DNA of 64,000 bases from Clostridia bacterium. Its GTDB lineage: Bacteria; Bacillota; Clostridia; Monoglobales; Firm-18. Under the pieces are notes generated by a model that was not told the DNA's origin, ran no database searches, and was given only the letters and a program-made list of their open reading frames with translations. Made by a program: the position numbers and the translations under genes. Position 1 is the first letter of the stretch. Each line of letters begins with the position of its first letter. This document shows, piece by piece, positions 2,463 to 53,071 of this stretch. The stretch is from assembly GCA_017397315.1 (NCBI GenBank), contig JAFQJA010000019.1, positions 1-64,000 on the forward strand. Direction: 5' to 3'.

Positions 2463-2491
2463 TTGTGTTTTTAAAACTCCTATGGTATAAT
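2463..2491 (+). promoter_or_regulatory. Promoter of the carB leader transcript
   Basis: A -35 box TTGTGT (2463-2468), a 17-base spacer and a perfect -10 TATAAT (2486-2491) follow the tmcAL stop. Transcription would begin near 2498 and give a leader of about 160 nt before carB. No other promoter-like sequence is seen between the leader hairpin and carB. Confidence 0.8.
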
Positions 2492-2525
2492 ATATTGATA
2501 TTTGCGAAATGGGAGGTTAAGGATA

Positions 2526-2591
2526 ATGAAAAAAATGCTAAAGAAAGTTATTTATTTCCTTACAACCCCACTATTTTTATTTTCATTTTAG
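2526..2591 (+). CDS. Putative 21-residue leader peptide upstream of carB
   Basis: A short ORF has a strong ribosome site (GGGAGG, 2511-2516, 9 bases before the ATG). It encodes a lysine-rich start (MKKMLKK) and then a hydrophobic Phe/Leu-rich tail ending in FLFSF. The second half of the coding sequence is strongly T-rich. Its TAG stop (2589-2591) reaches the first bases of the hairpin at 2590-2620, so a ribosome finishing this ORF would mask the hairpin. There are no Arg codons and only one Tyr, so classical arginine attenuation is unlikely. A small membrane peptide is the alternative reading. Whether it is translated is unproven. Confidence 0.5.
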   Translation: MKKMLKKVIYFLTTPLFLFSF

Positions 2592-2625
2592 CGTTCACGA
2601 TTTTTTAATTGTGAGACGCTTTTTT
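2590..2625 (+). terminator. Intrinsic terminator/attenuator in the carB leader
   Basis: A 12-bp stem pairs 2590-2601 with 2608-2620, with one bulged G at 2615 and one G-U pair. The loop is 6 bases and a run of six T follows (2620-2625). It lies inside the carB transcript, between the leader promoter and the carB ribosome site at 2645-2650, so it would set how much transcription reaches carB. Confidence 0.8.
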
Positions 2626-2659
2626 ATTGTGTATTTTTATTAACAGGAGGGAAAAAAGT

Positions 2660-53047: not shown

Positions 53048-53071
53048 GAAAAAGGTCGTACGACCTTTTTC
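53048..53071 (+). terminator. Terminator of the heat-shock/prmA operon
   Basis: A perfect 24-base palindrome (arms 53048-53057 and 53062-53071 with a GTAC loop) continues into a T-rich tract (to about 53080), 60 bases after the prmA stop. Confidence 0.85.

Follow-up and report, generated by a model that had tools for sequence, protein, structure and literature searches.

Pyrimidine genes of Gram-positive bacteria are usually assigned to PyrR. UTP-sensitive attenuation by coupling of the ribosome to RNA polymerase has, to our knowledge, been described for enterobacteria. A translating ribosome represses terminators that coincide with a stop codon or lie close to one; that of pyrBI lies inside the leader ORF, and in amino-acid attenuators leader ORF and terminator are over 20 bp apart (PMC4824070). 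In Bacillus subtilis, RNA polymerase outruns the ribosome (PMC9226507), which makes close coupling doubtful where no pause intervenes. The B. subtilis tlrB leader includes such a case: a NusG pause lets the leader ribosome act on the terminator (PMC6851288). AT-rich DNA contains many copies of the pause-type motif TTNTTT, of which only a small fraction cause pausing (PMC12288461). In the open-access literature we found no description of attenuation by a leader peptide for either carAB or carB.

Here we describe a conserved candidate ribosome-coupled attenuator located upstream of carB, and recurring at carAB, starting from a single stretch of Clostridia DNA (the window, 64,000 nt). The genome to which the window belongs (G000; 0.92 Mb, 84% complete), placed in the Clostridia by its named carB relatives and by the carB tree, was compared with those of two congeners (G001 and G002), with members of the same family (among them G004 and G007) and with individual loci which are designated by L-numbers. 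The features of the leader are collected in Table 1.

Table 1. Features of the carB leader and its surroundings (window positions)
Feature	Position	Strand	Remarks
Upstream gene, PF05636	ends at 2448		same direction as carB
Promoter: TTGTGT 2463-2468, 17 nt, TATAAT 2486-2491	2463..2491	+	read in sequence
Predicted hairpin P1, SD region pairs with mid-ORF	2506..2577	+	folding
Leader-ORF Shine-Dalgarno (SD), GGGAGG	2511..2516	+	read in sequence; invariant across three species
Leader ORF, 21 codons, MKKMLKKVIYFLTTPLFLFSF then stop	2526..2591	+	ATG 2526, TAG 2589-2591
U-rich tract, TTTTTATTTTCATTTT	2574..2589	+	14/16 T; invariant across three species
Intrinsic terminator	2590..2625	+	hairpin 2590-2620, T6 2620-2625
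carB, carbamoyl-phosphate synthase large chain, 1066 aa	2660..5860	+	no carA adjoining

An earlier note on this DNA had proposed a good promoter followed by a 21-codon ORF with a strong ribosome site and a T-rich second half, whose stop codon overlaps a 12-bp terminator. The ORF and its SD can be read directly in the sequence, its length and position are kept in both congeners, and the T-rich second half is borne out by the U-rich tract, which includes the NusG pause-type motif TTATTT (2577-2582). The description of the promoter was slightly generous: its extended -10 is perfect (TG at 2483-2484; predicted transcription start near A2498), but its -35 matches at only three of six positions, which is why a promoter scan missed it. 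The -10 and its flanks are kept in the alignment with G001 and G002. The overlap and the T6 also stand, but the stem is composed of 13 pairs with a one-base bulge (UUUU loop, -13.4 kcal/mol). The A of the TAG is the first paired base of this hairpin, so that the distance between ORF and hairpin is zero, and 39 nt separate the terminator from the carB ATG. Two features go beyond the note: carA is missing, and the same layout is present at other car operons.

Could such an arrangement have arisen by chance, the hairpin merely terminating transcription of the upstream gene and the ORF being spurious? The upstream gene has the same direction and ends 140 nt earlier. A promoter-like sequence, however, lies between this gene and the hairpin, and only three of 3000 dinucleotide shuffles of the leader gave a comparable SD-ORF on a hairpin (ATG ORF of at least 10 codons, strong SD, end no more than 6 nt from the hairpin base). 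Since, in addition, a block of the leader is conserved in the genus and the layout recurs before other car genes, a chance origin is strongly disfavoured. Within the window, a further terminator-like hairpin, GAAAAAGGTCGTACGACCTTTTTC (53048-53071), also carries a 38-codon SD-ORF ending on it; a second terminator is found about 150 nt beyond and no gene start was called directly downstream.

The earlier note had suggested aligning carB upstream regions from related genomes. This revealed that both the short ORF and its spacing to the hairpin are conserved in the genus, and that the layout recurs before carA elsewhere. Leader DNA as such was identified in only two of 100 relatives, both congeneric (86% and 84%). 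In both, the ORF has exactly 21 codons with the same SD, start and frame. Fine-scale conservation is based on these three sequences only: 2560-2606 forms a 47-nt block which is identical in the three species and spans the last nine codons (including the U-tract), the stop, the terminator 5' arm and most of the loop, while no other stretch of more than 20 nt is invariant in the leader or the upstream gene. For comparison, only 54% of the fourfold-degenerate sites of carB are invariant across the same species. carB also includes one 47-nt invariant run, which is explained by conservation of the protein (98% identical). ORF codons 5-12, on the other hand, vary freely and the changes are mostly non-synonymous, so that selection on the peptide as such is not evident. 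The 3' arm of the terminator drifts in G001 and G002 yet retains its pairing, whereas the 5' arm is invariant. This points to a second constraint on the 5' arm, as expected where the ORF end and the ribosome footprint lie. From these alignments, the nucleotides of the ORF end, the U-tract and the 5' arm are constrained beyond the needs of the peptide and of the hairpin.

The upstream regions of some 107 carB loci were scanned. A sister family within the order has carA-carB operons with a 56%-identical carB, and most of these carry the same layout: a strong promoter is followed by an SD, an ORF of 26-50 codons with a U-rich 3' half, a terminator and then carA. The ORF stop is located at or inside the terminator 5' arm and carA lies 27-101 nt downstream. 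The layout is also present in L084 (Clostridia MAG RGIG3854) and L098 (Treponema sp. C6A8); with these included, the ORFs span 25-50 codons. The leader peptides differ between genera (e.g. LVSLSKPPIYQFPFLLSGVSYFQKQDNY, MRAYMLKFRRGHYFFDFSRNHCLKLF and MTPNIVNHKGIAIYDFSIASSFYCKGEVFFELR), and the leaders of other genera have no sequence in common, only the arrangement of ORF and terminator. Under one rule set, a leader ORF reaches the hairpin at 20 of 34 car terminators compared to 26 of 396 others (Fisher p = 3e-13), although p-values of this kind are overstated because many rows are related and the window was counted twice (as the window and as L001). When loci holding leaders are considered, the ORF lies on the hairpin in 18 of 19 against 5 of 80. 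The T content of the 60 nt preceding the terminator is 0.46 for car and 0.27 for the others. Across the leaders, T is raised at all three codon positions (0.44, 0.39 and 0.48), which argues that U, and not one amino acid, is under selection. In the carB tree, the window's genus, L084 and L098 are separate from the sister family. The layout thus occurs in more than one carB lineage and probably had several origins. At two of the loci, L016 and L017, a U-rich loop lies upstream of carA; its flanks read CCTG/CAGG at one locus and CCCG/CGGG at the other. This is possibly a covarying small hairpin within the leader ORF, perhaps a pause hairpin.

These comparisons also bear on whether the leader could be a structured RNA switch, in which P1 and the terminator bind a ligand or a protein (PyrR-like, or as a new riboswitch) and the ORF is incidental. 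We consider this rather improbable. Folding predicts P1 for each of the three species (-13.5 to -15.8 kcal/mol), where it hides the leader SD, and the invariant block could belong to an aptamer; but the z-scores of P1 are weak (only -1.4 to -1.8, not clearly more stable than shuffles), no Rfam match was obtained at the gathering score for the window and 15 car loci, nor any convincing match below the threshold, and the leaders of other genera share only the ORF-terminator layout. P1 may be a pause hairpin or a translation gate. No antiterminator was detected by folding: truncated transcripts fold into P1 only, and nothing pairs strongly with the terminator 5' arm.

The earlier note had seen neither a PyrR binding loop nor an anti-terminator; for PyrR, this observation can now be extended to the genus. 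The PyrR element (RF00515) gave no match in a genome-wide Rfam search at gathering and permissive thresholds, and the PyrR protein (NF003549) none over the cut-off in G000-G002 (genomes 70-89% complete). The phosphoribosyltransferases of G000 are Hpt, PyrE and two further proteins, one Apt-like and one ComF-like. Two family members, G004 and G007, have a pyr operon that includes carAB and is headed by pyrR and the PyrR RNA element. In G000, the pyr locus (L190, contig 23) reads efp, a small gene, lspA, rluD, pyrB, pyrC, pyrF, pyrK, pyrD, pyrE and a radC-like gene, as named by inspection of the translations; it does not include pyrR and no leader precedes pyrB, which follows rluD. Nor was an ORF-terminator leader found upstream of pyrB and argF of relatives, which suggests that the control is specific to car genes. 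The candidate carB attenuator is the only premature-termination control that we found on the pyrimidine pathway in G000. A plain substitution of PyrR by the ORF leader was discarded as an explanation, since some leader-bearing relatives also have PyrR: it is present in many sister-family genomes with the leader, including most of genus g9.

No match to carA was found in G000 (PF00988 and TIGR01368) nor in G001 and G002 (TIGR01368), while family members have the gene. Its chance absence from all three genomes is unlikely, though possible at completeness levels of 84, 89 and 70%. An enzyme encoded by carB without carA may run on ammonia or with another amidotransferase. A second carB, approximately 45% identical, stands alone at L197 (7894-11175; G018) with no carA seen beside it. 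In several Clostridia (L004-L008), carB is fused in frame to a C-terminal diaminopimelate epimerase (DapF)-like domain, in frames of about 1350 aa.

How might the leader function? On balance, we favour a transcription attenuator worked by the ribosome in which low UTP turns carB on. RNA polymerase would slow in the U-rich tract (2574-2589), aided by the NusG-type pause motif and perhaps by P1. If the pause were long enough, a ribosome loaded at the leader SD would reach the end of the ORF. With TAG in the A site, its front edge would be positioned at about 2601-2602, as calculated from a toeprint distance of 15-16 nt (PMC6851288); the terminator 5' arm would be covered and carB transcribed. 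If the polymerase passed fast, the ribosome would lag, the hairpin would form and transcription would end. Low UTP would be expected to lengthen the pause, because the pausing stretch consists of U, and hence to switch carB on, in the manner of the pyrBI leader of enterobacteria.

The different parts of this proposal do not carry the same weight. It is quite likely that read-through depends on the ribosome: with zero distance between ORF and terminator and a footprint extending over the 5' arm, translation of the leader should give read-through, provided that the ribosome does not fall behind. Coupling may be supplied by NusG pausing, as the conserved TTNTTT suggests. By the rule that this motif is accompanied by a hairpin which precedes the paused 3' end by about 11-12 nt, TTATTT at 2577-2582 together with the weakly supported P1, which ends at 2577, would place a pause near 2588; the motif is not sufficient in itself. 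The NusG protein of G000 carries the residues VRNT, in which we take the N-T pair to correspond to that of B. subtilis NusG in residue numbering. The N and T residues are of the pro-pausing type (as defined in PMC12288461). For the signal itself, UTP or the pyrimidine pool has about an even chance of being correct; it is drawn by analogy with pyrBI (PMC4824070). The lack of such leaders before pyrB and argF of the relatives, the presence of PyrR in most g9 genomes, the free variation of the middle codons and the weak z-scores of P1 count against the proposal.

A ribosome-coupled attenuator could also sense translation (growth rate, ribosome supply or ribosome-targeting drugs) and not UTP; the terminator would then be blocked by a ribosome that moves slowly or stalls close to the end of the ORF, as in tlrB or bmrB. 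The geometry of tlrB is indeed the same, and there, in B. subtilis, the terminator is prevented by a ribosome close to the stop of the leader (PMC6851288), while bmrBCD requires leader translation (PMC4191407); the invariance of the last ORF codons in the genus would fit. We nevertheless regard this as unlikely: carB is a biosynthetic and not a resistance gene, the ORF end includes no RXR-type arrest motif, and the peptides are unrelated between genera while U-richness is retained.

Classical amino-acid attenuation, with stalling at Phe, Leu or Arg codons altering the folding of the leader, appears very improbable. Phe is the commonest residue in leader second halves (39 residues) but has no link to CarB, and the single Arg codon in each of the G001 and G002 leader ORFs has no counterpart in several others (the window, L017 and L025). 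No codon run is common to the leaders, which makes this type of control unlikely, no antiterminator is predicted, and the terminator abuts the stop codon instead of lying more than 20 bp away (criterion from PMC4824070). The earlier note, which had considered arginine attenuation unlikely since the ORF has no Arg codons, is thus in agreement with the wider comparison.

Taking the UTP-responsive attenuator further, it is conceivable, but for the present a tentative proposal, that widespread UTP-sensing, ribosome-coupled attenuators control carbamoyl-phosphate synthase genes in Clostridia and some Treponema. They would have originated separately in several carB lineages. Their peptides would be unrelated, selection acting only on U-richness and on an ORF end placed at the terminator, and their coupling would come from NusG pausing, in organisms whose RNA polymerase presumably runs ahead of the ribosome. 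The recurrent ORF-on-terminator layout at car genes would offer a testable case of functional coupling in Bacillota and, if true, would explain the control of the first steps of pyrimidine synthesis where a genome has no PyrR.

Compared with known systems, the carB leader resembles the trp/his/phe-type leader peptide attenuators in its short ORF ahead of a terminator; it differs in having no regulatory codon run or antiterminator and in a terminator that abuts the stop. With the PyrR-dependent pyr attenuators (RF00515) it would share transcription attenuation of pyrimidine genes in Bacillota, of which the pyr operon of G004 and G007 is an example, but the carB genus lacks an RF00515 match, a PyrR protein and a PyrR binding loop and has a leader ORF instead. 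Closer to it is the tlrB (yxjB) leader of B. subtilis, likewise a Gram-positive leader ORF adjoining an intrinsic terminator, with a T-rich NusG pause which gives the ribosome time and an SD-hiding hairpin (for carB, both are predictions only). tlrB, however, answers tylosin through an RYR arrest peptide, whereas the carB leader has no arrest motif and its gene is biosynthetic. The pyrBI attenuator of E. coli, with its pyrL leader, similarly combines a short leader ORF, a U-rich stretch before an intrinsic terminator and a pyrimidine gene, and there too a ribosome near the terminator is expected to allow read-through. The earlier note had equated the two geometries; a ribosome at the ORF end would cover the terminator as it proposed, but the carB-leader stop overlaps the hairpin base while the pyrBI terminator lies inside the ORF, a small difference. 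The carB leader also differs in its length of 21 codons, in standing before carB and not pyrBI, and in its host, one of the Clostridia with a NusG of the pro-pausing type, and there is no detectable sequence relation. Neither homology nor the gene it precedes places it in the pyrBI family; by analogy, it would work like pyrBI.
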